From Nitrospiraceae bacterium (lineage in GTDB: Bacteria; Nitrospirota; Nitrospiria; Nitrospirales; Nitrospiraceae), in contig JABFSG010000003.1 of the NCBI GenBank assembly GCA_013140715.1, positions 1 to 42,492 of the forward strand: DNA of 42,492 nt. The letters are read 5' to 3'. Of the stretch, positions 5,228 to 37,261 are shown in pieces; position 1 is the first letter of the stretch; every line of letters begins with the position of its first letter. The notes beneath the pieces were generated by a model. That model did not search any database. It was given only the letters and a program-made list of their open reading frames with translations, and was not told the origin of the DNA. A program made the position numbers and the translations under genes.

Positions 5228-5894
5228 ATGAGAAAGCGATGAGGATTGGATGAGGAGGATGAGGGGAAGGGGGCCATCCTCCTCGCGGGTCTGCTGAGCG
5301 TTATGCAGCTAACGGCAGGAGGTGCCTTGGCAGAGCCCCAGAAGAATTCGGCATTGCGACTCCTGTTGGACAAAGGGATCATTACGTAACAGGAATATGA
5401 CCAAGCCTTCGACGAGGATCGACGGGCGACGGTTCTCGAAGAACAGCGCGATAAACAAGCGACCGCGATCACGAAGCATGGTCTAGAATCCAAGCTGGGC
5501 GGCCTTCGGTCAAACCAACATCGATGGAGGTCTGGCCGCGGTCAGCAGTCAAACCGGAAAGTTCGAAGCCATTTGCACGACTTCACTGATGGTGCATGGC
5601 ACCTATTCTCTCCCCGACGACGGCAAGACATGGATCGGAGGCGGCTATGGGACGATCTATTCGTCGAATGCGGCTGAAATGACCTGTGCGGTGAGTGCGC
5701 CCTCTTGTGGAGGCGCCGTGCGCACGGTGCAGAATATCTATGTCCGCGACTCCACCTACTATGCCTATGCGTTCCACGATTTCACACAAGAAATTCTCGC
5801 CGTGCTGACGATGAACTTTATTCGGACTACCTATGCCGATGGGGCCTATGCCGAGGATCATCGCGTACAAGTGAGCTTTTTCTATCGATTCTAG
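5228..5894 (+). pseudogene. Decayed outer-membrane beta-barrel gene
   Basis: In one frame from 5228 there is a signal-peptide-like stretch (ILLAGLLSVMQLTAGGALAEP) and a typical porin N-terminus LRLLLDKGIIT-stop-QEYDQAFDE, interrupted by TGA at 5240 and TAA at 5387. Near 5500 the coding sense jumps by one base into the frame reading AFGQTNIDGGLAAVSS, which continues to 5894 and ends VQVSFFYRF, a characteristic C-terminal barrel strand with terminal Phe. The reconstructed product is about 215 residues, shorter than usual porins, so an internal deletion is also likely. The intact 3' part (from ATG 5589) has no signal peptide and is unlikely to be functional alone. Confidence 0.7.
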
Positions 5895-6001
5895 TTGGTT
5901 GGGTTTAAGCCCGATATTCTGTATGATGCGGCCTACATCGCAGCGCACATCGATCAGGTACAACCACTGGGGGCGATCCCTTTTCTTGTAAACGAAAAAA
6001 T

Positions 6002-6565
6002 ATGTACTGGCGGGGAACAATAGCAGTGATCGGTATAGTCTTGGGGGTCATGACTGAGCTCCAAGGATGCCGTTTGGGTGTTCAGCCCTCCATGCCGGAT
6101 ATCGGCGCAACCACCATCGCGCATACGGCGGAGATCCAAGCAGACGATCAGACCGTCAAGGAAATCATGTCCACATTTAACCATGCCGACGAAGCCCTTA
6201 AGCGAAAGGATCTGAACGCGCTTATGGACCTGTATTCGGAGGGCTACAATCACAATGGCTACACGAAGGAGATCATAAGAAGAGACTGGGATGTCCTATT
6301 TCAGCAGTATCACGATTTCTCCAGCACCCATGTATTCTCGAAAATTACAGTGGAAGTCGGCGAAGTTCCCAAGGCCGAGATCACCTGCACTGGAAGTCTT
6401 TGGGCATCCTCCGTGCGCACTGGCGAACGAGTCAATATCGATAGTTGGTTTGGCGTCGTTCATCTCTTGATCTACGAGGGTGGGGCATGGCGGATACGAG
6501 GCTATGCAGGGGAGAGCCCCCGCATCGCGCCACGGTATGCGCTTCCACCCCACCCACTTTTCTGA
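6002..6565 (+). CDS. Putative lipoprotein with NTF2/SnoaL-like domain
   Basis: 187 residues. The N-terminus has a hydrophobic segment followed by ELQGC, an approximate lipobox, so it may be a lipoprotein. The body (QTVKEIMSTFNHADEALKRKD...LMDLYSEGYNHNG...WRIRGY) has the helix-helix-helix then curved-sheet pattern of SnoaL/NTF2-like proteins, where an initial helix and D-L-Y-S signature are followed by a C-terminal W-R-I-x-G-Y strand. Such folds bind small ligands or act as lipoprotein scaffolds; no catalytic residues are evident. The start at ATG 6002 lacks a strong ribosome binding site. It is the last gene before a repeat-filled gap and the ars cluster. Confidence 0.65.
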   Translation: MYWRGTIAVIGIVLGVMTELQGCRLGVQPSMPDIGATTIAHTAEIQADDQTVKEIMSTFNHADEALKRKDLNALMDLYSEGYNHNGYTKEIIRRDWDVLFQQYHDFSSTHVFSKITVEVGEVPKAEITCTGSLWASSVRTGERVNIDSWFGVVHLLIYEGGAWRIRGYAGESPRIAPRYALPPHPLF

Positions 6566-6700
6566 GCCTGCCTTTTTGTTCACGTTTTCTCAACGCACCT
6601 CACTCAGTTCTATCCCAGCCTGTGCTCTCGCTGGAAGAACCTGCGCCCATTCCATATGCGGCATAAATATTTCCTTCAAGCTTGCTCATTGTCGATCAGG

Positions 6701-6861
6701 GATAGGGTCAGATTGATCTTCCACTGCATGCATCCATTCGTATTCTTCGCCCCATTTCAATGCCCAGCCGAGCAAGGGCGTGAGGAGATTTTGACTGCAG
6801 CCGTTGAGTGCGGCCGTTCTCAGGGCGCGCGCTCCGGGAGCGAAGAAAAGTCCTCAGGCCC
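6701..6861. repeat. Degenerate palindromic repeat family B, copy 1
   Basis: Left part GATTGATCTTCCACTGC (6711-6727) and right part 6824-6861 (GCGCGCTCCGGGAGCGAAG, then AAGTCCTCAGGCCC) match the two arms of the better copies at 12729 and 14721, separated by a longer diverged centre. It ends one base before the -35 box of arsR. It fills half of the 6566-6897 gap; the other half contains nothing I recognise. Confidence 0.55.
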
Positions 6862-6891
6862 TTGACTCATCAAAATTAGTTGATATATAGT
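6862..6891 (+). promoter_or_regulatory. arsR promoter with ArsR-type operator
   Basis: TTGACT (6862-6867), 18 nt, then TATAGT (6886-6891) is a good sigma-70 promoter. Between the boxes lies ATCAA-N6-TTGAT (6869-6884), the inverted repeat typical of ArsR/SmtB operators, so repressor binding would block polymerase. The predicted transcription start (about 6897-6899) coincides with the ATG at 6898, implying a leaderless mRNA; no ribosome binding site is present. Confidence 0.75.
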
Positions 6892-6897
6892 TTGAGC

Positions 6898-7218
6898 ATG
6901 GTTGCTCCTGCTGTCTCGTTCAAGAACGCTGTTGTCTTATTTCATGCTTTGTCGGATGAGACGCGGTTGGCGTTGCTCGAACGGTTGAAAGGGGGGGAGC
7001 GTTGTGTCTGTGAGTTGACGGATGCGATGAAGGCAAGCCAGTCGCGACTCTCGTTTCATCTCAAAGTGCTGAAGGAGGCAGGGTTCATTCAGGATCGCCG
7101 CGAGGGACGGTGGATGTACTACTCGCTTAATCCTGACGCGATCGAGGAGTTGGAAGAGTTAGTAGATTCGCTCAAGAAAGCGGCCAAGCCGGCGGTTTCG
7201 GCAGACCGGTGCTGCTGA
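6898..7218 (+). CDS. arsR: ArsR-family arsenic-responsive repressor
   Basis: 106-residue winged-helix DNA-binding repressor. FHALSDETRLALLERL and the recognition region ASQSRLSFHLKVLKEAGFI are classic ArsR motifs. Cys36 and Cys38 in ERCVCEL match the CxC arsenite site in the E. coli-type ArsR; a further Cys pair ends the protein (DRCC). It probably represses its own operon through the operator at 6869-6884. ATG 6898 is chosen over an in-frame TTG at 6880, which would lie inside the promoter -10 region. arsM follows after 44 bases. Confidence 0.92.
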   Translation: MVAPAVSFKNAVVLFHALSDETRLALLERLKGGERCVCELTDAMKASQSRLSFHLKVLKEAGFIQDRREGRWMYYSLNPDAIEELEELVDSLKKAAKPAVSADRCC

Positions 7219-7262
7219 TTTTTGGGTCAAATAGATCAACATTTCTTGATGGGAGGTGATCC

Positions 7263-8129
7263 ATGAGCACAGAGCAAGAGCTGAAGGAAGAAATCAAGGC
7301 GAGGTATGGCCAAGCGGCGTTGCAGGCCAAGCGCCCGGAACGTCGTTCTTGCTGCGGAACCGGCACGGTGTTGGAGGGAGGAAAGCTCGATCCGATCACT
7401 TCCTATCTGTATGCCGATCAGGAGACGGCGGTTCTGCCGGAGGATGCAGTTCGGGCTTCGCTTGGCTGCGGGAATCCGACGGCGCTGGCGCACATCATGC
7501 CGGGTGAAACTGTTCTCGATTTGGGATCTGGCGGCGGAATCGACGTGTTGCTCTCGGCTCGACGAGTGGGGCCTAACGGCAAGGTGTATGGATTGGACAT
7601 GACCGACGAGATGTTGGAGTTGGCAAGGGCCAATCAGGTCAAGGCCGGTGTGACCAATGTCGAATTTCTCAAGGGCGACATCGACCATATTCCGTTGCCG
7701 GATCATTCTGTCGACCTGATCATTTCCAACTGCGTCATCAACCTGTCGCCGGACAAGGACCGGGTATTGGCCGAAGCGTTCCGTGTGTTGAAGCCGGGTG
7801 GGAGATTTGCCGTTTCGGATATCGTGATCCGGGGCGAGATGCCGGCTGAAATTCAGCGGAGTCTCGAATTATGGGCCGGCTGCGTGGCCGGCGCGTTGGA
7901 AGAACATGACTACAAGGCGAAGCTCGCGCGGACCGGCTTTGAACAGGTGTCCATTGAGGCAACTCGCGTCTATACGGCTGCGGATGCGCGAGATCTGTTC
8001 GAAGGGACCGGTCTCGATGTCGAAACGATCGCGCCGCTCGTCGATGGGAAATTCATCAGCGGATTTGTACGGGCGACAAAGCCGGCAGCGCAGCCGGCGG
8101 CCTGCTGCTCCACAACCTGTTGCTCATGA
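7263..8129 (+). CDS. arsM: Arsenite S-adenosylmethionine methyltransferase
   Basis: 288-residue cytoplasmic enzyme that transfers methyl groups from SAM to trivalent arsenic, giving methylated and volatile arsenicals. Class I methyltransferase motif I is VLDLGSGGGIDVLLSA (about residues 84-99); LDMTDEML and LKGDIDHIPLPDHSVDLIISN follow. Cysteines expected to bind As(III) are present: Cys30/31 (RRSCCG), Cys69 (LGCGNP), Cys157 (SNCVINL) and Cys207 (AGCVAGAL). The tail is Cys-rich (ACCSTTCCS). A near-perfect GGAGGTGATC ribosome binding site precedes ATG 7263. The stop overlaps the arsC start by ATGA. Confidence 0.94.
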   Translation: MSTEQELKEEIKARYGQAALQAKRPERRSCCGTGTVLEGGKLDPITSYLYADQETAVLPEDAVRASLGCGNPTALAHIMPGETVLDLGSGGGIDVLLSARRVGPNGKVYGLDMTDEMLELARANQVKAGVTNVEFLKGDIDHIPLPDHSVDLIISNCVINLSPDKDRVLAEAFRVLKPGGRFAVSDIVIRGEMPAEIQRSLELWAGCVAGALEEHDYKAKLARTGFEQVSIEATRVYTAADARDLFEGTGLDVETIAPLVDGKFISGFVRATKPAAQPAACCSTTCCS

Positions 8130-8539
8130 AAAGGCGCGTACTGTTTCTGTGCACGGGCAATTCAGCGCGCAGTCAGATGGCGGAAGGCCTGCTTCGTCAC
8201 CTGGCAAGCGACCGTTTCGAGGTAGACAGCGCGGGCACGCATCCAGTTGGACTCAATCCAGGCGCGATCGAGGCTATGCATGACATCGGCGTCGATATCT
8301 CGCAACATCGATCTAAGAGGATGAGCGAGTTCCTGAACGATCCGTTCGATTATGTGATTACGGTCTGCGATCGGGCGAAGGACTCATGTCCGTTGTGGCC
8401 TCATGCCGCGGAATTGATTCATTGGAGCTTCGAAGACCCTGCCGAGACTAAGGGGTCGCCGGAAGAACGGCAGGAGGCCTTCCGACAGGTGCGGGAAGAA
8501 ATCAGAGCGCGTATTGAAGAATTCGTCAAGGACGATTAG
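8126..8539 (+). CDS. arsC: Arsenate reductase, low-molecular-weight phosphatase (thioredoxin) type
   Basis: 137-residue enzyme reducing arsenate to arsenite. It has the LMW-PTPase P-loop C9-TGNSAR-S at the N-terminus and the additional cysteines C81 and C88 (TVCDRAKDSCP) that relay the disulfide to thioredoxin in the Bacillus/Staphylococcus-type ArsC; HWSFEDPAE supplies the general acid Asp. ATG 8126 overlaps the arsM stop (ATGA), so translation is coupled. The reductase would feed arsenite to ArsM. No arsB or acr3 efflux gene follows. Confidence 0.93.
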   Translation: MKRRVLFLCTGNSARSQMAEGLLRHLASDRFEVDSAGTHPVGLNPGAIEAMHDIGVDISQHRSKRMSEFLNDPFDYVITVCDRAKDSCPLWPHAAELIHWSFEDPAETKGSPEERQEAFRQVREEIRARIEEFVKDD

Positions 8540-8690
8540 GGAGAGTCTGAAACTGTCCGAGGTGCCGTTACTTCCCCTCCCCAAAGGGACAGCCTAGTTG
8601 CTCCTTGAGTGCGCGCATCGAACGACTTTCCTTCTCTTAAATGATCCTTCCAAGCTCGCTTGCCTTTCTCTTTTGAAATGGCACTCGCGT

Positions 8691-8770
8691 CGGTCCCACT
8701 GTGGCTGTCGAGTGAGCACATTCTGCCCGTGTGCGCTCCTGGAGAAAGGGATCAGCACAGGTGTCATTCA
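8691..8770. repeat. Degenerate palindromic repeat family B, copy 2
   Basis: TCCCACTGTGGCTGTCGAG, then GAGCACATTCTGCCCGTGTG and CGCTCCTGGAG align with the corresponding parts of the copy at 12729 (TTCCACTGCGCGCGCCGAAC, GAGCACATTTCTATTGTGCG). It lies in the gene-free stretch 8540-9123. Confidence 0.45.
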
Positions 8771-8814
8771 TCTCTTTCACCCTGCGCGTTCTGTGAGTGG
8801 GAAGGGCACCAAAC

Positions 8815-8885
8815 TGCTGTACAAAATTGAAAGTGCAAATGCATCTGTGCGTATCGGATTGTACGTATAGGTAGTCGCCACAGGT
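8815..8885. repeat. Direct repeat unit 1
   Basis: 71-nt unit containing ACAAAATTGAAAGT, AAATGC, ATTGTACGTATA and GTAGTC-CCACAG. It matches the unit at 8961 in about 55 of 71 positions (my count), with strictly conserved blocks and variable spacers. The copies are 146 nt apart and in the same orientation. Confidence 0.75.
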
Positions 8886-8960
8886 CACAGTGGATGATCG
8901 GGCATCGATTCCGATGTCGGATCGCAAGGGAGGTCCTTCTTTTTGGCAGTAAAACTGCAT

Positions 8961-9031
8961 CGCTGCACAAAATTGAAAGTAGAAATGCCACGAAGCGTAC
9001 ATAATTGTACGTATAAGTAGTCACCACAGTT
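8961..9031. repeat. Direct repeat unit 2
   Basis: Second copy of the 71-nt unit, ending 93 nt before the zinc-ribbon gene. GTACATAATTGTACGTATA contains small palindromes (GTAC, TACGTA). It could be a protein-binding array or the tandem ends of a lost insertion sequence; no transposase remnant is visible. Confidence 0.75.
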
Positions 9032-9123
9032 CTAAGTTATTGATAATGCACGAATGTCATGCTGGATTGTAAATTGCTATGTACTCCCGCGTCAGTCAAT
9101 TTTTTTCAACGAGGGAGAGCAGC

Positions 9124-9315
9124 ATGATGGATTGTCCGAAGTGTAAAGGAATGATGACGTTGGAACGGTTCTCGGATTTCTTTCTGGTGTTCTATGCCTG
9201 GAAATGTCTCAATTGCGGCGCGGTCATCGATAAGACCATTTGCAATAACCGGCGAAAGAGTCTCGCAGCCAAAGCTACGAAAGAAGTTGAACCGACTGCC
9301 GTAGAAGTTGGGTGA
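9124..9315 (+). CDS. Small zinc-ribbon protein
   Basis: 63-residue protein with two Cys pairs, CPKC (about residues 4-7) and CLNC (about 28-31), spaced as in a zinc ribbon, then a basic tail. The sequence MMDCPKCKGMMTLERFSDFF...AWKCLNCGAVID has no enzymatic domain. GGGAGAGC precedes ATG 9124, so this start is chosen over an in-frame ATG at 9079. A role in nucleic-acid binding or as a small regulator is possible but not shown. A strong hairpin at 9423 lies downstream, between it and the convergent oxidase gene. Confidence 0.7.
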   Translation: MMDCPKCKGMMTLERFSDFFLVFYAWKCLNCGAVIDKTICNNRRKSLAAKATKEVEPTAVEVG

Positions 9316-9422
9316 CAGTCTTCGCTATTTCTATGTGATGTGCCCCAAGTCGAGCCTCTGAGAGGGGGAGCCGATATTTAAGTGCTCCTCCGTAGCAGCC
9401 TCATCGCATTTCTTCATCAGTA

Positions 9423-9449
9423 GGAAGGCCGCCATTCGGGCGGCCCTCC
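9423..9449. terminator. Bidirectional terminator-like hairpin
   Basis: GGAAGGCCGCC-attc-GGGCGGCCCTCC forms an 11-12 bp GC-rich stem with a 4-nt loop between the convergent zinc-ribbon and multicopper oxidase genes. Neither side has a long U-tract, so intrinsic termination is likely but not certain. Confidence 0.55.
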
Positions 9450-9492
9450 TCTGTACCCTGATTCCCTCTCCTTCACATCTTAGCGCTTGACG

Positions 9493-12072
9493 TTATTTCT
9501 TGTGCCTGTCCGCCCAGCGATATTCATGCTTCATCTTGTGATGCTCCCGGTCATGATCATCGAAGTCATGATGATGCGGGGGTGGTGCAATAGCCGAGAC
9601 GACGTAGGGGCGCATCATCTCGTTGTCCTCGTGTTCAACGATATGGCAGTGCCACACATAGAGGCCGGCGATGTCGAACTTGGCCTTCACGGTCGTGATC
9701 TCTCCCGGATAAGCAATCACCGTGTCCTTGTAACCCATCTCCGATGGTGCGAGAGGATGGGGGGTTACGCAGCCACTTCCAGGCACCGAAGGGTCGGAAA
9801 TATTGATGCATGCCCGGCTGACCACTTCGAATCGCACCAGATGCATGTGGATCGGGTGCCCATCGACCGTGAAGTTATAGATCTTCCATTCCTCGGTGTC
9901 GCCGAGCTTCGGCTTCTCTGTCACATCCACCGTGATCGTGGCCCCGCTGTTCAGCCTGACTTTCACTGGCTGGCTGGCGCCAGACACATCCGTCCACTTC
10001 AACGGGTTCCCTACGTCCGTCGCAGGGGTAAGCGGGGGGCCCTGGGTCGTCGAACCCTGCAGGCTGACGGTTCCGAGCAAGGCAGCGGTCGGTCCGAAAG
10101 GCACCGGGAATGGCGCTACAGCGGGATCGCCACAGGGAGTCGCCACCAGATTCCCTGCGCTATCCACCGCAAAGTTCCCATTTCCATCGCTCGGTACGCA
10201 CACTTGTGCGGAGGACATCTCGTTCAGCGATACTAGCCGCGTGACGGTCGATGGTCCAAGCGGCTGTTCCGCGTTCAGTTTGAGGTTGGCCGGCGCCGTT
10301 GTCTTGCCGTCGGTCGAACCCTTGGCCCCGCTGAGGCTCGCGTTCACCACAAACTGCATGACTTGTCCGGTCGTGCCGGGATCGGCCACAGGATCAACTG
10401 GGAACCCCCCGAAAGGCCCGTCCGGTCCCGTATTCACCATGGTCACGATCGTCCCCGGCGCCAACCCGCTGAAGTCCACAATGACATCGGCCCTCTCCGC
10501 ATTGCCCATCAGGAGCGCCCTCGGATCGCTCAGATTTGGACTTGGAGTCGGCTCAGGGGCTCCCGCGATCAACGCAATCTGCTCGCCGGTCTGTATCCTT
10601 ACCACCTGGGGCAAGAAGCCCTGCTCTGCGCCGATCTGATAGAAGGGAATCTCCTTCTTAACGCTATTCGCGTCGACATAGGTGAGCGCGAGATTCAGGA
10701 AACGGGCATTGGTTCCGTTCAACAGGCGGAAACGATACCGAGCCTGTGCCACCTCGAGTTTCGGCCAGCTCACTCCATTGACCACCATCACGTTAAAAAA
10801 GGCCTCAGGGTTCCAGATCGGGGCAACATCGGATGTTGGCGCGAAGGGGATCTGGAGCTGATTCTGATCCAGCCCCTCAAAAAACGCCCGATTGGCGGGG
10901 TAGAAGAGCGAACCATCACTATTGAACGACCGGTCTTGGATTGCAATCGGGATCTCGCGGATGGCATTTCTGACAGGATTCGACGTGTTGAGCGCGAGCA
11001 CACCCTGTCCCCTGCGCGGGGCTGGTCCTGGCAATATCGCTTTGGTATTTGTGACTACGTTCCTCCCCCCGTCGAACCTCCCTCCGCGGATCAGCCAGAA
11101 TCCAGCCGGTCCCGCATAGACGTTTGATCGCGTCATCCCCAGGGCATGGTCGTGGTACCAGAGTGTGGTGGCAGCCTGATCGTTCCGGTAGGAGAAATCC
11201 GCATAGCCAAGATTGCCGGGATTGCGTCCGGTGACGTCGTCAAACAACCGACCGTGACTCGTATAGCCGGCGGGAATATATTTCGCAGCCGGAAGCCACC
11301 AGGCTTCGGGGTACCCGTCGCTGGCAGGATCTACGTGAGAGCCGTGCACATGGGTGACAATCGGAACCGGACCTTTGTAGGGGAGAGGGTCGAGCCCCAT
11401 GCAATCGGTCCCGGTTAGAGCGCTACCATTATGCGGATCACACACTCCGGGAGGATTCGCCCAGTGGAGCGTCTGATCCACCGGAAGCAGGTGCTCCAGA
11501 AACTGATGTTTGAGGTCTATCGGGTTGGTCTTGGCCCCCACCAGTTCGTTTATCCAGCGGACATTGACCCGCCTGGCGTCTCTTGTCTCAATGGTATAGG
11601 CGGGATAATTGAATTGGGAGTTGGGATCAGGCGCGACCAGAGGCGTGGGGTCGCCAGCTGGACCATAACTCCACACGGTGGTAGCCGGCAACGGAACCGG
11701 CAGGATCTGTTGCTGGAATTGCCTCACCGCAATTTGGTAATTTTCCCCTTTACGTCCTTCACTGTCTTCCGGCATGTAATCGTTTCTGGTGGGATCAGTA
11801 AATTTACGATCGATGTCGCCGTTCGTCTCGCTCCTGCGCATCACCGGTGGGATGACCAGAGGCGTGATGTATTTCGTGATGGTCGTAGGATCCAGTGTTC
11901 CGCCGGGCAGCGGGTCCGCGAACACCGGCACCGAGGTCCAGGGTGCCAAGGCCATTGCTAAGGCGCTGGTTACAATAGCCAGCCGGCTATTCCTTTTCCT
12001 GTCTTCTCGTCCTCGACCACCGCTGCTGGGGTCGGTCCAGCTTAGATTCAACCGTCTGAGTCGATTCAGCAT
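9493..12072 (-). CDS. Large exported multicopper oxidase with His-rich tail
   Basis: 859-residue periplasmic or secreted multicopper oxidase. A signal-peptide-like hydrophobic segment lies at about residues 31-52 after a long basic leader. The four copper motifs are intact: HVHGSH (241-246), WYHDH (305-309), HPIHMH (739-744) and HCHIVEHEDNEMM (808-820), giving the T1 Cys/His/Met site and the T2/T3 trinuclear cluster. It should oxidise a reductant while reducing O2 to water; CotA/bilirubin-oxidase-like members act on metals or phenolics, but the substrate cannot be read here. It is about 250-350 residues longer than common laccases, with insertions between the second and third motifs. The C-terminus is rich in His, Asp and Lys (PPPHHHDFDDHDREHHKMKH), a possible metal-binding tail. 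GGAGGAGA precedes ATG 12072. Confidence 0.92.
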   Translation of the reverse strand: MLNRLRRLNLSWTDPSSGGRGREDRKRNSRLAIVTSALAMALAPWTSVPVFADPLPGGTLDPTTITKYITPLVIPPVMRRSETNGDIDRKFTDPTRNDYMPEDSEGRKGENYQIAVRQFQQQILPVPLPATTVWSYGPAGDPTPLVAPDPNSQFNYPAYTIETRDARRVNVRWINELVGAKTNPIDLKHQFLEHLLPVDQTLHWANPPGVCDPHNGSALTGTDCMGLDPLPYKGPVPIVTHVHGSHVDPASDGYPEAWWLPAAKYIPAGYTSHGRLFDDVTGRNPGNLGYADFSYRNDQAATTLWYHDHALGMTRSNVYAGPAGFWLIRGGRFDGGRNVVTNTKAILPGPAPRRGQGVLALNTSNPVRNAIREIPIAIQDRSFNSDGSLFYPANRAFFEGLDQNQLQIPFAPTSDVAPIWNPEAFFNVMVVNGVSWPKLEVAQARYRFRLLNGTNARFLNLALTYVDANSVKKEIPFYQIGAEQGFLPQVVRIQTGEQIALIAGAPEPTPSPNLSDPRALLMGNAERADVIVDFSGLAPGTIVTMVNTGPDGPFGGFPVDPVADPGTTGQVMQFVVNASLSGAKGSTDGKTTAPANLKLNAEQPLGPSTVTRLVSLNEMSSAQVCVPSDGNGNFAVDSAGNLVATPCGDPAVAPFPVPFGPTAALLGTVSLQGSTTQGPPLTPATDVGNPLKWTDVSGASQPVKVRLNSGATITVDVTEKPKLGDTEEWKIYNFTVDGHPIHMHLVRFEVVSRACINISDPSVPGSGCVTPHPLAPSEMGYKDTVIAYPGEITTVKAKFDIAGLYVWHCHIVEHEDNEMMRPYVVSAIAPPPHHHDFDDHDREHHKMKHEYRWADRHKK

Positions 12073-21990: not shown

Positions 21991-22461
21991 ATGTACTGCC
22001 GAAACCGCGTAGGTTACGTTATCTTCCCAGCTATGATAGCCGTGGTGGCTCTGGCGATAGCGGCATGCGCCTCGCGTCATCCTACCGCAGACCGAGTCCC
22101 CTCCCACGCAATGGAGGATGCCCTGAGCTATAAGGCCCCTTTTGGGGATACACGCACGGCTCCGCCAGAAATCGTTACAGCGGGTAAAGCGCTCTACGAA
22201 GGGAAGGGGAATTGCATTCTCTGTCACGGGATCAGCGGCAAAGGCGACGGCCCTGCTGCTCATATGCAAGACCCTCATCTACCAACCGACTTCACAAACT
22301 GCTCCGTTCAGAACGTACGGAAGGATGGGGAGCTATTTTGGGTGATTAAACACGGCAGTCCAGGCACGGGGATGAAATCACTTATTCCTGGGATGCTGTC
22401 GGAGGAGGAGGGGTGGAAACTCGTGGCCTATGTCCGAACATTTTGCACCGCACATTCGTAA
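21991..22461 (+). CDS. Cytochrome c lipoprotein
   Basis: 156-residue c-type cytochrome. Signal sequence with lipobox IAAC (Cys26) predicts a membrane-anchored lipoprotein; the haem motif is CILCH (75-79), followed by GKGDGPA, a common class I context, and a candidate axial Met (GTGMKSL or PGML). GGAGGT precedes ATG 21991, excluding the longer open frame that starts at 21883. It is the first gene of a four-gene envelope cluster and could pass electrons to or from the haem-bearing barrel protein downstream. Confidence 0.9.
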   Translation: MYCRNRVGYVIFPAMIAVVALAIAACASRHPTADRVPSHAMEDALSYKAPFGDTRTAPPEIVTAGKALYEGKGNCILCHGISGKGDGPAAHMQDPHLPTDFTNCSVQNVRKDGELFWVIKHGSPGTGMKSLIPGMLSEEEGWKLVAYVRTFCTAHS

Positions 22462-22558
22462 CCTGCACGTCGCGTTGTCGTAGCGCTTTGAGAGAAACAG
22501 AATTTGCGGAAGCATCAATTGGCCTGCGCATGCGGGTGAGAAAGGAAGGGACACAACC

Positions 22559-24061
22559 ATGAGCAATCGTGCGATACGTGGACTCGTTGTCTGTCTGCTC
22601 GGATTGATCGGCCTGTTCACGTATGAAATCAGCGTCCTCCTGCCTGAGGCGCAGGCCATTCCCGCGTTCGCACGGAAGTATGGAGTGTCGTGCAACGTCT
22701 GCCACGTACCAGGGTTTCCGAAGCTCAATGATTTTGGGAACCAGTTTCGCGACCAGGGCTATCAATTCGACGCGGATGTGGACCTCCCCACTAACGAAAA
22801 GATCACCATGGGCTACTGGCCCCTCTCAATGAGGACGACAGTTGGCTATCAGGCAGCCAGTGTCCGAACGGATGGCAGCGGCATCTCCACTGGCGGGTTT
22901 GGCTTTACGGGGCTGGACATTTTAAGCTTTGGCCTCCTGCACCGCGACATTTCATTTGGTCTCGTTCTTACGCCTGGCCTTGGAGGCGCAGGCTTTGGCA
23001 CGGGAGCATCGGACGGCGATTTGGAGGCTGCTTATGTCCGGCTCAACCGGCTTGAACGGTTTCTCGGCGTCAAGGGCGAGCCTGGGTCCTATCTCATGAA
23101 TCTGAAGGTCGGGAAGTTTGAGCTCGATGTGCCTTACAGCGAGAAACGGAGTCCCACTCTCAACACGCCCTTTGTGATGTATCACTATGTCGCCGGTACT
23201 CCCTATACGGCTGCGATCAGCGGGACGTCGACCAGTACCTATGCCAACCCCAATTCCTTTGCGATCGGAGAAAACTCACCTGGCATCGAACTGGCCGGCA
23301 CAACCAAGACGGCAGTCACCGATGGGGTCTTCCGCTACAGTCTCGCGGGGCTCAGCACGAACACATTCTCAGGCCCTCTCAACGGCAGTGGGTGTGGCGG
23401 GGGTGGCTGTGGCACCGGCGGGCGAAACGTGAATTTTTATGGCCGCATGACTCAGTCGTTTGGAGGTTACGGCATTGTCACCGGACATCGCATCGGGCTG
23501 TTCGGCGCATACGGCAATGCTCCGACAAGGGTGAATGCCACCTGTCCCACCTGCCAGGCTGTTGGGGGGAGCGGTCAGCCGTTCTATCGGATCGGGGCGG
23601 ATGTGAGTTTCACCTACGATGGACAATGGAATCTCTTTGGCGCGGTTGTGCATGGGAACGACAGCAAAAACCTCTTTGTCTCACAAGGGATCGCAAACGC
23701 CCAGAATGCTTCATGGAACGGCGCCTTTGTCGAATTGGATTGGTACCCCACTCAATTGCCGCTGGTCGGAATGCCCGGCTGGTTCTTTTCCTATCGCTAC
23801 GACATCATCCGAAATGACCGGCAAGGCGATCCGACATTTGCGAAGAACTACAATAATGTCGATTCGCACACTTTCTTAGTCCGTTACTATCTCCATCAGT
23901 CGACCAGGACCGACATTGCACTGCATGCAGAATACAACACCTACCGTACGGTCGGCGTCGGGTCGGCCAATGCTGCTTCCTCAGCTAGCGGTCCTTGCGC
24001 TCCCGCATGCGGAAATCTCTTAGGTCAAACAATGCTCGTCGGGCTCGACTTTGCCTATTGA
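22559..24061 (+). CDS. Outer-membrane beta-barrel with N-terminal haem motif (Cyc2-like architecture)
   Basis: 500 residues. Signal peptide to about residue 33 (PEAQA), then IPAFARKYGVSCNVCHVPGF with one CxxCH (Cys45, Cys48, His49), PKLNDFG and QGYQF. The rest is rich in alternating aromatic/Gly strands and ends with GLDFAY, typical of an outer-membrane barrel. A single haem fused to a porin is the architecture of Cyc2, the outer-membrane Fe(II)-oxidising cytochrome, whose N-terminus has the same CxxCH...P-x-LNxFG...GY pattern. Related sequences also occur in bacteria not known to oxidise iron, so function is open. AAGGAAGGG precedes ATG 22559. Confidence 0.8.
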   Translation: MSNRAIRGLVVCLLGLIGLFTYEISVLLPEAQAIPAFARKYGVSCNVCHVPGFPKLNDFGNQFRDQGYQFDADVDLPTNEKITMGYWPLSMRTTVGYQAASVRTDGSGISTGGFGFTGLDILSFGLLHRDISFGLVLTPGLGGAGFGTGASDGDLEAAYVRLNRLERFLGVKGEPGSYLMNLKVGKFELDVPYSEKRSPTLNTPFVMYHYVAGTPYTAAISGTSTSTYANPNSFAIGENSPGIELAGTTKTAVTDGVFRYSLAGLSTNTFSGPLNGSGCGGGGCGTGGRNVNFYGRMTQSFGGYGIVTGHRIGLFGAYGNAPTRVNATCPTCQAVGGSGQPFYRIGADVSFTYDGQWNLFGAVVHGNDSKNLFVSQGIANAQNASWNGAFVELDWYPTQLPLVGMPGWFFSYRYDIIRNDRQGDPTFAKNYNNVDSHTFLVRYYLHQSTRTDIALHAEYNTYRTVGVGSANAASSASGPCAPACGNLLGQTMLVGLDFAY

Positions 24062-24128
24062 AGAAACACCGAATGAGAATATTAACTATTGGGCACCGAG
24101 CCGTCCGTGCTTTCTGTGGAGAAACGGA

Positions 24129-24977
24129 ATGACTCCTGGCTGGAAAGACAAGCGAGCCCGTTCAACTCCCCTGTTGATGATGGCTGTTCTGGCTGTCGTC
24201 GTGAGTCTCGGGGCGGCTCCAGTCAATCGAGTCGCCTGTGGAATGTGTGAAGAGCCGGATCGATTTGTCCGGCTGCAGACTTCCACAAATGATCGCTATG
24301 CGGAAGGTGCCCAACCCTTTTCCCATCCCTTCCGCTGGAGCGCTGAACAATGGAAGCCGATCTTGCGCAGTGTCCATGTCCAGAAACGAGGCCAGGGTCT
24401 GCTCTTTTTCTCTGCTCCGAACGGGCCGGTGCAGCAGGCCTTTACTCCGGCTGAGGTGGACTATCTCAGTGAAACCTTGACGCGAGCATTTGTCCAGGCG
24501 CAGCCCTCGGAGCTGGTGGTCTTTGGCTTGACGAACTCGAAGACACAAGAGATGACCGAAATCACGACGGGAGCTTGGTTTGTGAAAGGTACGCAGCTGC
24601 ACCTAATATTGGGGAACTATCGTGAAATCGTGACGATGTCGAATGTCCGCAATCTGGTATGGCAGGATCCGCTGCACATGATCGCCGGGTCGATTTATGA
24701 ATTTGTGCCGGGTCCCCATCAAAGCCTGACTCAAGAAGACGACAGAATCGGAAATTTCCTGACTCCTGAGGCGCCACAGTTAGCCCTCACCTATCAACCG
24801 CTCTCCTTGGATGTTCTCCCTGCAGAGGGTGGTCGCGATAGGGGATCGTCTCCTTCCGCTTACCAAGATTCTTCTCTCGAAGGGAAGTTGAAACGGCTCA
24901 AGCAGATTCACGATGATGGGTTAATTACCGACGATGAATTCATCGCAAAGAAGAAAACGCTCCTTGATGGGTTTTGA
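24129..24977 (+). CDS. Exported protein with C-terminal SHOCT domain
   Basis: 282 residues. Basic N-terminus then a hydrophobic segment (LLMMAVLAVVVSLGAAP) gives a signal peptide, with a nearby Cys (RVACGMC) that could be lipidated although the lipobox is poor. The central part (WSAEQWKPILRSVHVQKRG...TPAEVDYLSETLTRAFVQAQ) has no function I recognise. The last about 35 residues (LEGKLKRLKQIHDDGLITDD...KKKTLLDG) are a SHOCT domain, a short helical hairpin often mediating oligomerisation. GGAG lies before ATG 24129. It sits in the haem/copper envelope cluster and its stop is followed within a few bases by the start region of the next gene. Confidence 0.75.
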   Translation: MTPGWKDKRARSTPLLMMAVLAVVVSLGAAPVNRVACGMCEEPDRFVRLQTSTNDRYAEGAQPFSHPFRWSAEQWKPILRSVHVQKRGQGLLFFSAPNGPVQQAFTPAEVDYLSETLTRAFVQAQPSELVVFGLTNSKTQEMTEITTGAWFVKGTQLHLILGNYREIVTMSNVRNLVWQDPLHMIAGSIYEFVPGPHQSLTQEDDRIGNFLTPEAPQLALTYQPLSLDVLPAEGGRDRGSSPSAYQDSSLEGKLKRLKQIHDDGLITDDEFIAKKKTLLDGF

Positions 24978-25021
24978 CCATGAAAGACAATAGGAAAATT
25001 ACCAGTGAGGGGGGGCTTCTG

Positions 25022-25840
25022 ATGACACCAAAACTGTCTCTTGCTGTGCGCTATATTATTTTCTGCATGTTTCTCTCGTTAATCATCTCAAGCCTAGTGT
25101 GGGCCGAGCCGTATCAGGTCATCGACGTGACGAACGGAGGCACCATCAAAGGAGTGACAACCTGGAAGGGAGAGATTCCTGACCTGCCGCCGGTCGAGAT
25201 TCAAATAGACACGGAGCTATGCGGAGAGGAAATGCCGTCTCAGGCGTTGCAGATCAATCCGAAAAACCACGGCGTGCGACAGGTCCTTGTCTATCTTGAG
25301 CGGGTTGAGAAGGGGAAGGCACCGGCGGACAAATATTGGCTCCAGATGGTGGGTTGCCAATTCAAACAGCACGTGTTCCCGTTTGTTCGTAGTCAAGTCT
25401 TGGCCATGGTGAACGCCGATCCTATTCTCCACAACCCACACTTCTTTAACGCCAAGAACATCTCACTCCTGAATATTCCCATGCCCACCCTGAACCAGGA
25501 AATTGGCCACAAGTTCCTGCAGCTACCTGGAAAGCACGAAAAGGGAATAATGCGCCTTCAGTGTGATATCCACTCCAACATGAATGCCTATTGGGCAGGA
25601 TTTGATCATCCGTATTTCGCAATCACGGATGCTGATGGAACATTTGAGATTGGCGGGATCCCGCCCGGTAAGTATACGGTGGTGGCATGGCACGAAGGCT
25701 ACAGAGTGATAAGGGAGGAGTCTTCGAGGCCATTCTACGACAGGCCGCACATCCGTCAGCAGGAGATTGAGGTGAAATCAAACGAGTCAGTCGACGTTCA
25801 CTTTGAGTTCCCGGTTCGGAAGGTTACTATCGAGTACTGA
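25022..25840 (+). CDS. Exported cupredoxin-like / carboxypeptidase-regulatory-like protein
   Basis: 272 residues. Signal peptide to about residue 28 (SLVWAEP). The middle region has a cupredoxin-like ligand set: His137 or His140 (ILHNPHF), then Cys181-x2-His184-x2-Met187 in LQCDIHSNMNAYW. A C-terminal beta-sandwich with ADGTFEIGGIPPGKYTVVAWHEG matches carboxypeptidase regulatory-like domains. This combination occurs in periplasmic proteins of lithotrophs; copper binding is inferred, not shown. ATG 25022 has a GAGGGGGG ribosome binding site and directly precedes the hydrophobic core; ATG 24980 is in frame. Last gene of the cluster from 21991. Confidence 0.75.
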   Translation: MTPKLSLAVRYIIFCMFLSLIISSLVWAEPYQVIDVTNGGTIKGVTTWKGEIPDLPPVEIQIDTELCGEEMPSQALQINPKNHGVRQVLVYLERVEKGKAPADKYWLQMVGCQFKQHVFPFVRSQVLAMVNADPILHNPHFFNAKNISLLNIPMPTLNQEIGHKFLQLPGKHEKGIMRLQCDIHSNMNAYWAGFDHPYFAITDADGTFEIGGIPPGKYTVVAWHEGYRVIREESSRPFYDRPHIRQQEIEVKSNESVDVHFEFPVRKVTIEY

Positions 25841-30773: not shown

Positions 30774-33536
30774 ATGAAGACCGCACCTCTCATCGTCAGA
30801 GCCTGGCACACGTCTTCGGCTGATGCTTTGGCGGCGGATCTCCACACGAGCTTCGAGGGAGGCCTATCCAGTCACGAAGCCCGGCAACGACTCCAGCAAG
30901 AAGGCCGCAATGAGTTGCCTGAAGCGCAGCCCCCTTCCCCGCTGAGGCTCTTCTTCTCTCAGTTCACGAGCGTCATTGTCTGGGTATTGATCGGGGCGGC
31001 GATCCTCTCTGGATTGTTGGAAGACTGGCTCGATGCGGCGGCCATTCTGGCCATCGTGCTACTCAACGGAATTCTTGGATTCGTACAGGAGTTTCGGGCT
31101 GAGCGGTCGTTGGCGGCGCTGCGGAAGATGTCTGTGGCGACGGCACGGGTGATTCGCGACGGGATTGTGCTGCCGATTCCTGCACGGGAATTAGTGTGTG
31201 GTGACCTGACCCTCCTCGAAGCGGGCGACCGCATTCCTGCCGATGTGCGGCTGATTTACACGACGAACTTCCAAACGCAGGAGGCTTCGCTGACCGGCGA
31301 ATCGACGCCGGTCCAGAAGCACGCGGGCGTCATTGCCGGAACCGGCGTACCACTGGCCGAGCGGACGAACATGGCCTTTATGGGTACGGTCGCCGTGTCC
31401 GGTAAAGCGCGGGCTGTTGTCGTGGCAACTGCCTTGCGCACCGAGTTGGGCCGTGTCGCCGCGATGATCCAAAAAGCCACGGAGGCTGAACGGGCAGAGA
31501 CTCCCTTGCAGCGCCGGCTCGAACGATTCGGCTACCAGCTGTTGTGGCTGGCGTTAGCGGTCGTGACGGTTGTATTCGGTTTGGGCTATCTGCGGGGTGA
31601 GCCGCCGGTCTTGATGCTGTTAACGGCGGTGAGTCTCGCCGTGGCCGCCGTCCCAGAAGGGTTGCCCGCTGTCGTGACCATCACGTTGGCCTTGGGCGTG
31701 ACGAGGATGGTCAAACGTCATGCTTTGATCCGTAAGCTGCCAGCGGTCGAAACGCTTGGGTCCGCCACGGTCATTTGCTCCGACAAAACCGGCACTCTCA
31801 CCAAGAACGAAATGACAGTGACGAGGTTATTCGCCGGAGACCGGGTATTCGAGGTGACGGGTGAGGGGTACACCCCAGTGGGAGAGATTCGCGAAACCGG
31901 ATGTGAGGCGTTAGGCGTGAGGCATGAGGGGGTTTCTTCTGACGCCGTACCCCTTACCCTTCACCCCTTAGGCCTCCCGCCCGCCTTATGCGAGCTGCTG
32001 AGTACCGCTGTGCTGTGCAACGGTGCGACGTTACGACAGGAGAATGGAACGTGGCAGATAATTGGCGATCCGACAGAAGGGGCGCTCCTGGTTGCGGCGG
32101 CCAAGGCAGCGATCACGGTCGAGACGCTTGGTTCTGCCTATGACTTCCTCGGAGAGGTGCCGTTCGATCCTGAGCGCAAGATGATGACGATCGTGCGGCG
32201 AACACCGGATGGCCCGTTCGCCTACGTCAAAGGCGCGCCGGATGTGTTGCTGCGGCATTGTACGCATCGGTTAGCCATGGACGGCACGACCGAACCCCTC
32301 ACGGAATCGATTCGCGGCGCCATCCTCGATGCGAATGCATCGTTCGCTCATCAAACGTTGCGTGTGCTCGCGATGGCCCATCGGCGGTTGGACGGGGAGC
32401 CCGAGGCCTACCGGGCGCATGAGCTGGAGGATCGGCTGGTTTTTCTCGGGCTTGCGGCTATGAAAGACCCGCTGCGGCCTGAGGCGAAAGCCGCTGTCCA
32501 GGCTTGCCACGATGCCGGCATTCGGACGGTGATGATCACAGGAGATCATAAGGATACGGCCACGGCGATCGCAGAAGAACTGAGAGGGGGGAACGAACCG
32601 ATACAGTCGTTGTCCGGGATGGAACTCGATCGACTGTCCGACGATGAGTTGGCGAGGACTGTGGAGCAGGTGTCGGTTTATGCGAGGGTCTCGGCAGAGC
32701 ACAAGTTGCGCATCGTCAAAGCCTGGAAGGCGCGGGGCGCCATTGTGGCCATGACGGGCGACGGTGTGAACGACGCACCAGCAGTCAAAGAAGCAGACAT
32801 TGGCGTGGCCATGGGGGTGACCGGAACCGATGTGACGAAAGAGGCCGCCGACATGGTGGTGACGGACGATAACTTCGCCTCGATCGCTGCGGCTGTGGAA
32901 GAAGGCCGGGGCATCTTCGACAATATCCGCAAGACCATCTATTTTCTCCTGTCGTGCAATGTCAGCGAGGTGCTGGTCATGTTGTTTGCGACGTTGATCG
33001 GTCTTCCCTTGCCCCTGTTGCCGATTCAAATTTTATGGATGAATCTCGTGACGGATGGATTTCCGGCTCTGGCGTTGGCAGTAGATCCCAAGTCGCCCGA
33101 TTTGATGAAGCAGCCGCCCCGACGACCGGAAGCTCGGTTGTTGGACGGCGGCACACTCTTGGCTATCGGGGCACAAGGGGTTATGTTGAGTGCGATCGCG
33201 TTGGGGGCATTCGCCTATAGTCTGTATGGTCTCCATCAAGAGGTTGAGCAAGCGAGGACTGTCACATTTACCGTGATGGTTATCGCGCAATTGGTGCATG
33301 CGTTTAACTGTCGAAGTGAACGATGGTCTCTGTTCCAGGTTGGTCTGTGGACCAATCGTCCGCTCCTCTTGGCTTTTTCACTCTCTCTTGGGATTCAAGT
33401 TGTCGTGCTCACCGTCCCAGCGGTCGCGACGATCTTCAAGGTTGTTCCGCTGCCGATCGAAGACTGGGCGTTGATGGGAGCCATGGGCATTCTGCCCTTT
33501 CTTATGATGGAGGCAATCAAGTTGCTGCGACGATGA
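30774..33536 (+). CDS. P2A-type (Ca2+-ATPase-like) cation pump
   Basis: 920-residue integral-membrane P-type ATPase. N-terminal cation-ATPase domain ([19 protein letters not shown]), actuator motif SLTGES, membrane motif [16 protein letters not shown] with the SERCA/PMR1-type PEGL, phosphorylation Asp about residue 337 in [47 protein letters not shown], and C-terminal segments with LLSCNVSE and [17 protein letters not shown], which place it with Ca2+/Mn2+ exporters. Residues about 377-402 in the nucleotide domain are encoded by a quasi-palindromic repeat (31903-31977) and are probably an insertion. ATG 30774 is used; the ribosome binding site is weak. Its stop overlaps the ackA start (ATGA). 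Confidence 0.93.
31903..31977. repeat. Quasi-palindrome C6 inside the P2A ATPase coding sequence
   Basis: GTGAGGCGTTAGGCGTGAGG...CATGAGGGGGT pairs imperfectly with TACCCCTTACCCTTCACCCC...TTAGGCCTC. About 20 of 29 aligned arm positions match. Its length (75 nt) is a multiple of three and it adds residues [10 protein letters not shown]...TLHPLGL without breaking the frame. Confidence 0.65.
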
Positions 33537-34783
33537 AGGTACTGGCCATCAATAGTGGAAGCTCCTCCCTGAAGTTCAAAATCGTCGAATTCGACGAAAC
33601 TGCCGGAGGGGGAGCCGGTCGACAAGCAAACGTACGATTCGATGGATCGATAGAAAACATCGGGTCTGCAGCCAGACTGTTGTTTCGCCGCTCTGGGACT
33701 ACAATATTTGAAAACCGATGTGCGGTTGCCACCCATGCCGAGGCAGTCCGATCGATGATGCAGATGTTAGAGGAGTCGAGCCGGGAGGAAGGGCGGGCTC
33801 TTGGCATCGAGGCCATCGGACATCGAGTGGTACATGGAGGCGAGCAGTTTCAATCGCCGGTTAGAATCGGCGAGGACGTTTTCGCCGAGATTGAGCGTCT
33901 GGCCGAACTGGCGCCGCTGCATAATCCCGGGTGCATCGCCGGGATCAAGGGCGCGCGCGCGGTGATGGGGTCTGATATCCCGATGGTCGCCGTCTTCGAT
34001 ACGGGATTCCATCGCACGATCCCGCCCCAGGCTGCCACCTATGCGATCGATCTCGACCTGGCTCGCAAGCACGGGATTCATCGTTACGGATTTCATGGTA
34101 TTGCACATTCGTCGTTAGCCGGCATCTGCGCCGCAGCGGCCAACCGGCCGCTGGCCAGCCTCCGTCTCGTTACGGTACATCTTGGTAATGGCTGTTCTGC
34201 GACGGCAATCGATCGAGGCCGTTCGGTAGATACGTCGATGGGATTTACGCCTCTGGAAGGCCTGGTGATGGGGACCAGGTCGGGCGATCTGGACCCTGCG
34301 TTGGTCGGTCATCTCATGCGGCATGAAGGGCTCACTGTCGACGAGGTCGAGCGTTTCTTCAACGAGCGCTCCGGCCTCCTGGGACTGTCCGGCTTGTCGA
34401 ACGACATGCGCGACCTGCTGGCAGAGGAAGCGAAGGGCGACGCTCGCGCGGGTCTGGCCATCGCGGTTTTCTGCTATAGGGTTCGAAAATATATCGGGTC
34501 GTATTTGGCGGTCCTGGGAGGCGCCGATGCGCTTGTCTTCGGCGGCGGAATCGGCGAGCGGTCTGCGATCATCCGCGCGCGGATCTGCGACGGAATGGCC
34601 TGGTGCGGACTGCGACTCGATCCCCTACGAAATGTGGCAGCCGTGAACCTCGCTTCCGGTGATGCGATGAAGATCAGCGAAGATGGCGCGCCGCTCGCTT
34701 GCTATGTGGCGGGTGTCGATGAAGAGGTCGAAATTGCCCGCGCCACGCGCGAATGTATATTGAACAGGCCGTCCAGCGAGTAG
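33533..34783 (+). CDS. ackA: Acetate kinase
   Basis: 416-residue cytoplasmic enzyme: acetyl phosphate + ADP = acetate + ATP. Signatures are complete: LAINSGSSSLKF at the N-terminus, GHRVVHGGE, VFDTGFHRTIPPQA, RYGFHGIAHSSLA, VHLGNGCSATAIDRGRSVDT, MGTRSGDLDP, FGGGIGERSAIIR and VDEEVEIARAT (catalytic Glu). Length fits the family. The start ATG 33533 overlaps the stop of the P2A ATPase by four bases, so the two are translationally coupled; a longer upstream frame is rejected. Phosphoketolase follows after hairpin C5, so acetyl phosphate made by Xfp can be turned directly into ATP. Confidence 0.96.
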   Translation: MKVLAINSGSSSLKFKIVEFDETAGGGAGRQANVRFDGSIENIGSAARLLFRRSGTTIFENRCAVATHAEAVRSMMQMLEESSREEGRALGIEAIGHRVVHGGEQFQSPVRIGEDVFAEIERLAELAPLHNPGCIAGIKGARAVMGSDIPMVAVFDTGFHRTIPPQAATYAIDLDLARKHGIHRYGFHGIAHSSLAGICAAAANRPLASLRLVTVHLGNGCSATAIDRGRSVDTSMGFTPLEGLVMGTRSGDLDPALVGHLMRHEGLTVDEVERFFNERSGLLGLSGLSNDMRDLLAEEAKGDARAGLAIAVFCYRVRKYIGSYLAVLGGADALVFGGGIGERSAIIRARICDGMAWCGLRLDPLRNVAAVNLASGDAMKISEDGAPLACYVAGVDEEVEIARATRECILNRPSSE

Positions 34784-34867
34784 GATAGGCTGAGGTCGAG
34801 GTTAAGGTTGAGAAAAGAGCTGATGTCTTCAGCTTAGCCTCAACCTTAGCCTGAGCCTTTTCCTATT
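34783..34867. repeat. Quasi-palindromic word repeat C5 (GAGGTTAAGG-type)
   Basis: GGATAGGCTGAGGTCGAGGT, TAAGGTTGAG and AGCTGA on the left; TCAGCTTAGCCTCAACCTTA and GCCTGAGCCTTTTCCTAT on the right. It begins at the ackA stop codon and ends three bases before the GGAGAT ribosome binding site of xfp, so it occupies the whole intercistronic space. Confidence 0.82.
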
Positions 34868-34882
34868 ATGGAGATGACAACC

Positions 34883-37261
34883 ATGAAGTCTGTGTTAACC
34901 AAGAAAGAACTGACGCTGATCAATGCCTACTGGCGGGCAGCCAATTACCTGTCAGTCGGGCAAATCTATCTCTACGACAATCCCTTGCTAAAGAAGCCGC
35001 TCACGCGCGCGCACATCAAGCCGCGTCTACTTGGCCATTGGGGCACGACACCCGGTTTGAATTTCATCTATGTGCATCTGAATCGCATCATCAAGGAGCA
35101 GGACCTTGAGATGATCTATATCGCCGGGCCAGGCCATGGCGGGCCAGGGATTGTGGCGAACGCGTATCTGGAAGGGAGCTACAGCGAGGTCTATCCAAAC
35201 GTCTCGCAGGATGAAGAGGGTCTGAGGCGTTTCTTCAAACAGTTCTCTTTCCCCGGCGGCATTCCGAGTCACGTTTCACCGGAGACACCTGGGTCTATTC
35301 ATGAGGGCGGCGAGTTGGGCTATTCGCTCTCGCACGCATTTGGGGCGGTATTCGACAATCCCGACCTGATTGCGGCCTGCGTGGTCGGCGATGGTGAAGC
35401 AGAAACAGGCCCGCTCGCGACGAGTTGGCATTCCAATAAATTTCTCAATCCGCTCACCGACGGTGTCGTCCTGCCCATTCTCCATCTGAACGGCTACAAG
35501 ATTGCGAATCCCACGGTTCTGGCCCGTATTACTCACGACGAGTTGGACCAGCTGTTCCGCGGCTATGGCTATAGCCCATATTTCGTCGAAGGCAGCGATC
35601 CTCAGAAGATGCATCGGCTCATGGCCTCGACGCTCGACTGCGTTGTCAGCGATATTCAACGTATCAAAACAACCGCGCGCCGAGACGGAGCCAAGAAGCG
35701 GCCGCTCTGGCCTATGATCGTGCTCCGTACACCAAAAGGCTGGACCTGTCCGAAGCAGATCGACGGCAACAAGACCGAGGATTACTGGCGTTCGCATCAG
35801 GTGCCGATGGGCGACATGGATAAACCGGGGCATGTCAGGATTCTCGAACGATGGATGAAGAGCTACAAGCCCGAGGAGCTCTTTACCAAGACGGGAGGGT
35901 TCAAGCCTGTGCTGGCTGCATTGGCGCCAGAGGGAACGCGCCGTATGAGTGCGAATCCCCACGCCAACGGCGGCCTCCTTCTCAGGGACCTGCTCCTGCC
36001 GGATTTCCGCGACTATGCAGTCAAGGTCAGGAAACCGGGCGCCCTTGATGCCGAGTCTACCCGCCTCATGGGGACATTTCTGCGAGACACGATGAAGATG
36101 AACATGGGGAGCCGGAACTTCCGCCTCTTCAGTCCGGACGAGAACAATTCAAACCGTTGGCAGGACCTGTTGGAGGTGACCGACCGCGCCTGGATGGCGG
36201 AGCGCTATCCCTACGACGACCACCTGGCGGCGGACGGCCGGGTGATGGAGATGCTGAGTGAGCACCAGTGCCAAGGATGGCTGGAAGGGTATCTTTTGAC
36301 CGGACGGCACGGGTTCTTTTCCTGCTACGAGGCGTTCATCCACATCATCGATTCGATGTTCAATCAACATGCCAAATGGCTGAAGGTCTGCGGCCACATT
36401 CCCTGGCGACGACCGATCGCCTCGCTGAATTATCTCCTGTCCTCTCACGTCTGGCGGCAAGACCATAATGGATTCAGCCATCAAGATCCCGGGTTTCTCG
36501 ACCACGTCGTCAATAAGAAGGCCGAGGTGATCCGGGTCTATCTGCCGCCCGACGCCAATACGCTCTTGTCCGTCACCGACCACTGTCTGCGGAGCCGTAA
36601 TCATGTGAACGTCATCGTGGCCGGCAAACAACCGGCCCCGCAGTGGCTCAACATGGACGATGCGATCACCCATTGCACTGCCGGCATCGGTATCTGGCCC
36701 TGGGCCAGCAACGACGGAGGTGATGAGCCGGATGTTGTGATGGCCTGCTGCGGCGATGTCCCCACGCTGGAAACGCTGGCGGCTGTGACGCTGCTGCGTA
36801 CCCATCTGCCGGATATCAGAGTGCGCGTGGTCAATGTCGTGGATCTCATGAAGCTGCAACCGCCCAATGAGCATCCGAACGGATTACCCGATAAAGACTT
36901 CGATGCCCTGTTCACAACGGACAAGCCGGTCATCTTTGCGTTTCATGGCTATCCCTGGCTGATTCATCGATTGACCTATCGGCGAACCAATCACAAAAAT
37001 TTGCATGTGCGCGGGTACAAAGAGGAGGGCACGACGACAACGCCCTTCGACATGGCAGTCTTAAACGACCTCGATCGGTTCCACTTGGTGATGGACGTCA
37101 TCGATCGTGTCCCGAAACTGGGGCCTCTGGCCGCCCATACTAGGCAAGCGATGCAGGACAAACGAGTGGAGCATAAGTCCTATATTGCCAAGTACGGGGA
37201 TGATCGTCCTGATATTCGAAATTGGAAATGGGGCGCAAGACGATTTCGGAGGTTCACATGA
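34883..37261 (+). CDS. xfp: Phosphoketolase (xylulose-5-P/fructose-6-P)
   Basis: 792-residue thiamine-diphosphate enzyme splitting xylulose-5-P (and often fructose-6-P) with phosphate into acetyl phosphate and glyceraldehyde-3-P or erythrose-4-P. Family motifs: [15 protein letters not shown] near the N-terminus, [50 protein letters not shown], the ThDP site [19 protein letters not shown], and C-terminal [13 protein letters not shown]. Length matches the roughly 800-residue family. GGAGAT at 34870 with 7-nt spacing selects ATG 34883 over ATG 34868. Next to ackA it forms an ATP-yielding carbon branch; a HAD phosphatase starts within its stop codon. Confidence 0.96.

Follow-up and report, generated by a model that had tools for sequence, protein, structure and literature searches.

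A Cyc2-like cytochrome-porin gene between cytochrome c and cupredoxin-like neighbours in a Nitrospiraceae bacterium, a candidate outer-membrane electron conduit

Four open reading frames lie close together on the + strand at positions 21991-25840 of the DNA stretch analyzed here, a 42,492-nucleotide sequence of a Nitrospiraceae bacterium (assembly GCA_013140715.1, contig JABFSG010000003.1, positions 1-42,492, forward strand), hereafter the window (Table 1). The central gene encodes a Cyc2-like protein of 500 residues, predicted to be a fused cytochrome-porin. It is preceded by the gene of a putative cytochrome c lipoprotein, which has a lipobox-like AIAAC, one CILCH, and a Pfam Cytochrom_C match (E 8.7e-11), and is followed by genes of two proteins with hydrophobic N termini, the second being a cupredoxin-like protein (CUP) that carries C181-D-I-H184-S-N-M187. 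A first-pass annotation of this DNA had described the same arrangement, with a cytochrome c lipoprotein ahead of the barrel gene and two exported proteins, one bearing a C-x2-H-x2-M site, behind it, and had interpreted the set as a candidate outer-membrane electron conduit.

Table 1. Features of the cyc2 locus, in window coordinates
Feature	Position	Strand	Basis or remark
Monohaem cytochrome c, predicted lipoprotein	21991..22461	+	Lipobox Cys at residue 26; Pfam Cytochrom_C
CILCH haem motif of the cytochrome c lipoprotein	22213-22227	+	
Cyc2-like fused cytochrome-porin, 500 residues	22559..24061	+	Orthologues, alignment, model, fold match, tree
AIPAFARKY, Cyc2 signature AXPXFAR[Q/K][T/Y]	22655..22681	+	Sequence compared with PMC8406198
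CNVCH, haem c site of the barrel protein	22691..22705	+	Cys45, Cys48, His49 conserved
PKL, PXL motif 4 residues past CxxCH	22718..22726	+	Sequence compared with PMC8406198
Predicted 16-strand beta-barrel, residues 88-500	22820..24058	+	AlphaFold2 model, VIA-align
Exported protein with C-terminal SHOCT domain (24885-24965)	24129..24977	+	SHOCT E 1.5e-6; downstream of cyc2, conserved
CUP, cupredoxin-like, with C-terminal carboxypeptidase-regulatory-like domain (25616-25717)	25022..25840	+	CarboxypepD_reg E 6e-7
His137 of CUP, predicted copper ligand	25430..25432	+	Conserved in orthologues
Cys181-x2-His184-x2-Met187 of CUP, predicted copper-ligand loop	25562..25582	+	Conserved in orthologues

According to Keffer et al., Cyc2 proteins are recognized by the signature AXPXFAR[Q/K][T/Y] upstream of CxxCH, a PXL motif four residues farther on, a minimum length of 365 residues, and a 16-strand porin resembling OprP or OprO (PMC8406198). 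The barrel protein fits each of the published sequence criteria. Behind an N terminus that, judged by eye, resembles a signal peptide, its translation runs AIPAFARKY-GVS-CNVCH-VPGF-PKLNDFG...GYQF, so that the signature ends three residues ahead of the single CxxCH, and the N-terminal CxxCH, PKLNDFG, and GYQF named in the first-pass annotation are all present. The protein ends in ...LDFAY, an ending of a kind usual for outer-membrane barrels. CxxCH was retained in all 25 aligned orthologues (53-89% identical), in which most of the flanking motif is also invariant, and Cys45, Cys48, and His49 are unchanged in all 49 rows of a wider set.

The AlphaFold2 model built from the alignment of 25 orthologues has 16 strands, with a mean predicted local distance difference test score (pLDDT) of 55.4 and a predicted template modelling score of 0.62. 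Foldseek placed OprP (2o4v) first (E 1.3e-10) and OprO (4rjw) fourth, and many 16-strand porins matched residues 82-500 in VIA-align with Z of about 20. OprP and OprO are the porins likewise reported for Cyc2 (PMC8406198). Searches of PDB sequences with the barrel protein, as a single sequence and as a profile, returned no meaningful relative, and scans against Pfam and NCBIfam gave nothing above cut-off. The 16-strand barrel proposed at first pass is thus confirmed as a prediction. As a member of a porin-like family, the protein might also be a plain porin whose haem motif is a relic and whose neighbours adjoin it for unrelated reasons, which would leave no electron conduit. This reading is very improbable, considering that CxxCH and its flanks are invariant across distant relatives and that redox carriers repeatedly adjoin cyc2.

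A genome scan recovered 27 loci, whose titles all read Nitrospira, Nitrospirae, or Nitrospiraceae and which include Candidatus Nitrospira defluvii. Homologues from Leptospirillaceae genomes, which were recognized by cytochrome 579 matches above the curated cut-off and not by name, were added to the phylogeny, as were two rows from plasmid records, whose matches were short and confined to the N terminus. The tree was built mainly within one phylum and includes no Cluster 1 or Cluster 2 reference. Within this scope, the Nitrospira proteins formed one clade beside the Leptospirillaceae Cyc2 homologues of the Cyt572 type (support 96/85 in the 49-row tree), and the same grouping was recovered, not strongly, when the longest branches were removed (90/82 in the 41-row tree). 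The Leptospirillaceae homologues share 28-31% identity with the window barrel over about 440 columns. The phylogeny therefore gives moderate support to a position next to Leptospirillaceae Cyc2, and a protein lacking a predicted barrel and lying far outside Cyc2 is not what was found.

Gene order was compared across 49 non-identical cyc2 loci whose scores reached 500 bits, some of them cut by contig ends, with partners counted within 1.3 kb on the same strand. CUP occurs near cyc2 in 24 of the 49 loci and a cytochrome related to that of the window in 20, the window being counted in both. At least one of the two is present in 43/49 loci and neither in six; since the arrangement is shared among relatives, the loci should not be counted as independent events. 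The window is the only locus of the 49 with both partners within 1.3 kb. Loci of the N. defluvii type carry CUP, usually with a SHOCT gene downstream, and most other loci carry the cytochrome. This alternation, in which the same barrel has either a cytochrome or a predicted cupredoxin-like protein as its neighbour, appears to be what is new here. Degraded versions also occur: in locus L003 both partners flank a degraded extra cyc2 copy, and in L009 a frameshifted CUP lies ahead of a frameshifted cyc2. The broken or partial cyc2 copies (L003, 668-1167; L009, 1376-3564; L010, 7953-9892) may reflect assembly error or decay.

All 13 aligned CUP orthologues retain H137, C181, H184, and M187, giving the His...Cys-His-Met ligand set of a likely type 1 copper site. 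A looser scan found the equivalent His and C-x2-H-x2-M also in distant CUP paralogues, and C-x2-H-x2-M is lost in the frameshifted L009 copy. Since CxxCH with its flanks is conserved in 25 barrel orthologues and the candidate copper ligands in 13 CUP orthologues, the motifs are not due to chance. The CarboxypepD_reg match sits just under its cut-off. Further matches below cut-off came from paralogues: one hit both Cupredoxin_1 (E 2.8e-4) and Copper-bind (0.033), and the amicyanin model was hit by two (0.013 and 0.0047). A PDB profile search with CUP returned the C-terminal domain type as its sole match, and the structure model (pLDDT 45) is too poor to be used for the fold. CUP, with its C-x2-H-x2-M loop, does not share the C-x4-H-x4-M ligand loop of rusticyanin. 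Neutrophilic iron oxidisers are described as lacking rusticyanin (PMC7767972). Because CUP paralogues in the window's genome adjoin very large multicopper oxidase-like and oxidase-like genes, the family appears to take part in several redox systems. Three such paralogues lie at L046, L047, and L048 (contigs C79, C77, and C36 of the window's genome, G000); multicopper oxidase-like genes of ~1500 residues stand beside those in L046 and L048, and membrane-oxidase-like genes lie near the one in L048.

For the cytochrome c lipoprotein, cytochrome 579 was considered as an identity and rejected. The protein is a relative of cytochrome 579, but it scored 76.6 bits with the NF033864 model, far under its curated cut-off of 280, and such a match does not identify the protein because cytochromes of this kind are abundant in Nitrospira genomes; elsewhere in the same genome another match reached 139.9 bits. 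A relative of the window cytochrome, 62% identical, is found in L133 (genome G246, contig C1, 2231-2587) with stop codons within the matched frame. A SHOCT gene lies at most 1.3 kb downstream of cyc2 in 36/49 loci. The better start of the one in the window is ATG 24129 compared with TTG 24051, its N. defluvii orthologue contains the SHOCT domain with E 5.4e-9, and the orthologues resemble lipoproteins.

Taken by kind, the assignment to a Cyc2-family conduit is well supported, and the locus probably encodes an outer-membrane conduit delivering electrons from an extracellular donor, Fe(II) most likely, to periplasmic carriers. The N-terminal monohaem domain would plug the 16-strand barrel, and the haem would take up single electrons from a soluble extracellular donor, most likely Fe(II). 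At the periplasmic face, the barrel protein may then reduce CUP or the cytochrome c lipoprotein encoded beside it, either of which could feed a periplasmic pool common to nitrite oxidation and the terminal oxidases. The analysis itself shows the sequence with its signature motifs, the predicted barrel, the kinship, and the conserved gene order; we infer the haem and copper loading, the localisation, the direction, the donor, and the transfer of electrons between barrel and partner. Kinship makes inward flow from Fe(II) the favoured guess. The same conduit may instead have Mn(II) or another metal ion as its natural donor, which appears quite unlikely, and the one-electron step is thermodynamically harder for Mn(II), which counts against this donor. 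A role of Cyc2 in Mn(II) oxidation has been put forward for Ca. Manganitrophus (PMC9040806), and Nitrospira metagenome-assembled genomes from manganese-removing filters are reported to carry Cyc2 (PMC12070406), but a Cyc2 potential measured at about 208 mV suits Fe(II) at neutral pH (PMC8406198), and the part of the literature covered yielded no Mn test on a Cyc2 from Nitrospira.

Several points weigh against a Cyc2 conduit feeding these partners. The barrel model is of modest confidence, with the N-terminal haem domain at pLDDT <50, the Leptospirillum branch is long, and Keffer et al. rate function in Cluster 3 as the least certain (PMC8406198). Moreover, genomes G216, G197, G399, and G406 have cyc2 with no CUP at E 1e-30, and G214 has CUP with no cyc2 at E 1e-50. 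Strict co-occurrence of CUP and Cyc2 was considered and abandoned, as several cyc2 genomes are without a close CUP and G214 has CUP without a close cyc2; a cytochrome or cupredoxin-like neighbour nevertheless recurs, and this part of the linkage first proposed holds. The orphan CUP, in L130 (G214, contig C29, 3432-4196, - strand), is 68% identical to that of the window and belongs to a comammox (complete ammonia-oxidising) genome.

The window's genome encodes adjacent amoB and amoA (L120, G000:C70, 89-2241) and an nxrA-like gene with a twin-arginine signal (L121, G000:C20, 538-3207), and on these genes it is a comammox Nitrospira. The presence of cyc2 is patchy in the genus (13/32 genomes), and no link with ammonia oxidation is visible among the 32 genomes, some of them incomplete: six have both, six amo only, seven cyc2 only, and 13 neither. 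The gene is thus dispensable, as would suit a protective or sensing role in which Fe(II) or another reductant is oxidised at the surface with no meaningful energy gain. This role is improbable, since electron carriers of two kinds show conserved linkage with cyc2, which points to a path into the respiratory chain.

A second, diverged Cyc2-CUP-cytochrome locus is found elsewhere in the same genome (L045, G000:C96:18000-29029, 4915-10738). Its Cyc2-like gene (8574-9953, AIPAFARKY...CTACH) neighbours those of a response regulator, a CUP paralogue, a sensor kinase, and a dihaem cytochrome, and about 5 kb before it a 763-residue protein with 30 CxxCH motifs is encoded (890-3181). The two-component system and the 30-haem protein accompanying this locus, together with a direction that nothing in the sequence fixes, would be compatible with electron export, in which electrons are discharged to extracellular acceptors at low oxygen for redox balancing. 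Export is unlikely, as the biochemically characterised Cyc2 proteins are oxidases of external donors (PMC8406198).

The first-pass annotation had placed the conduit in an organism not usually considered to possess one. This cannot be maintained: cyc2 of N. defluvii appears in the FeGenie paper (PMC7005843), Cyc2 is reported in nitrite- and ammonia-oxidising Nitrospirales (PMC9040806), and Cyc2 in sand-filter Nitrospira has been discussed with Mn oxidation as a hypothesis (PMC12070406), so Cyc2 in Nitrospira is not new. The earlier interpretation therefore stands in its Cyc2-like architecture, barrel, retained CxxCH, and recurrent linkage, and falls in the novelty of the organism and in CUP as a strict partner. 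In the part of the literature covered, no account was found of this gene neighbourhood, of its alternating cytochrome or CUP partner, or of a tie between this cyc2 neighbourhood and a comammox genome, and such accounts may exist. It is conceivable, though doubtful, that complete-nitrifier Nitrospira tap extracellular Fe(II) (or Mn(II)) through Cyc2 with an exchangeable cytochrome c or cupredoxin acceptor, running metal oxidation beside nitrification. If true, a conduit that functions in metal oxidation would give a complete nitrifier a further source of energy and tie nitrogen cycling to iron or manganese, in a genus central to nitrification in soils and water treatment. The exchange of cytochrome and cupredoxin beside the same barrel also offers a natural comparison for what Cyc2 needs as a periplasmic acceptor, which is unsettled for neutrophiles.

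Elsewhere in the window, an 859-residue multicopper oxidase-like gene (9493-12072, - strand) gave PhsA and CueO model matches below cut-off, and phosphoketolase and acetate kinase genes are adjacent within 33323-37261, with two P-type ATPases nearby.

In comparison with known systems, the predicted protein resembles Cyc2 of the neutrophilic iron oxidiser Mariprofundus PV-1, by its published description, in signature, single haem, and 16-strand porin prediction (PMC8406198). It shares with the Leptospirillum Cyt572/Cyc2 homologues, its nearest tree group, a one-haem N-terminal domain fused to a barrel, but Cyt572 has an unusual haem (PMC8406198), and the Cyt572 and Cyt579 genes of Leptospirillum are published as not clustered (PMC10654088). 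MtoAB and other porin-multihaem complexes combine a separate multihaem cytochrome with a porin, whereas the window locus has one polypeptide with one CxxCH. Within Nitrospira, cyc2 is already on record for N. defluvii and others; the neighbourhood and alternating partner were not found described in the literature covered. The amicyanin/plastocyanin family is like CUP in ligand spacing, C-x2-H-x2-M being that of amicyanin, and in the weak matches of CUP relatives, all below curated cut-offs, but CUP has an extra C-terminal domain. The rus operon of the acidophile Acidithiobacillus ferrooxidans, ordered cyc2-cyc1-cup-cox-rus, joins cyc2 to a cytochrome c and copper proteins and thereby provides a precedent for both partners (PMC10654088). 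Unlike that operon, the window locus belongs to a neutral-pH nitrifier and has no adjoining terminal oxidase genes, and CUP differs from the rus-operon copper proteins in its C-x2-H-x2-M loop and added regulatory-like domain.

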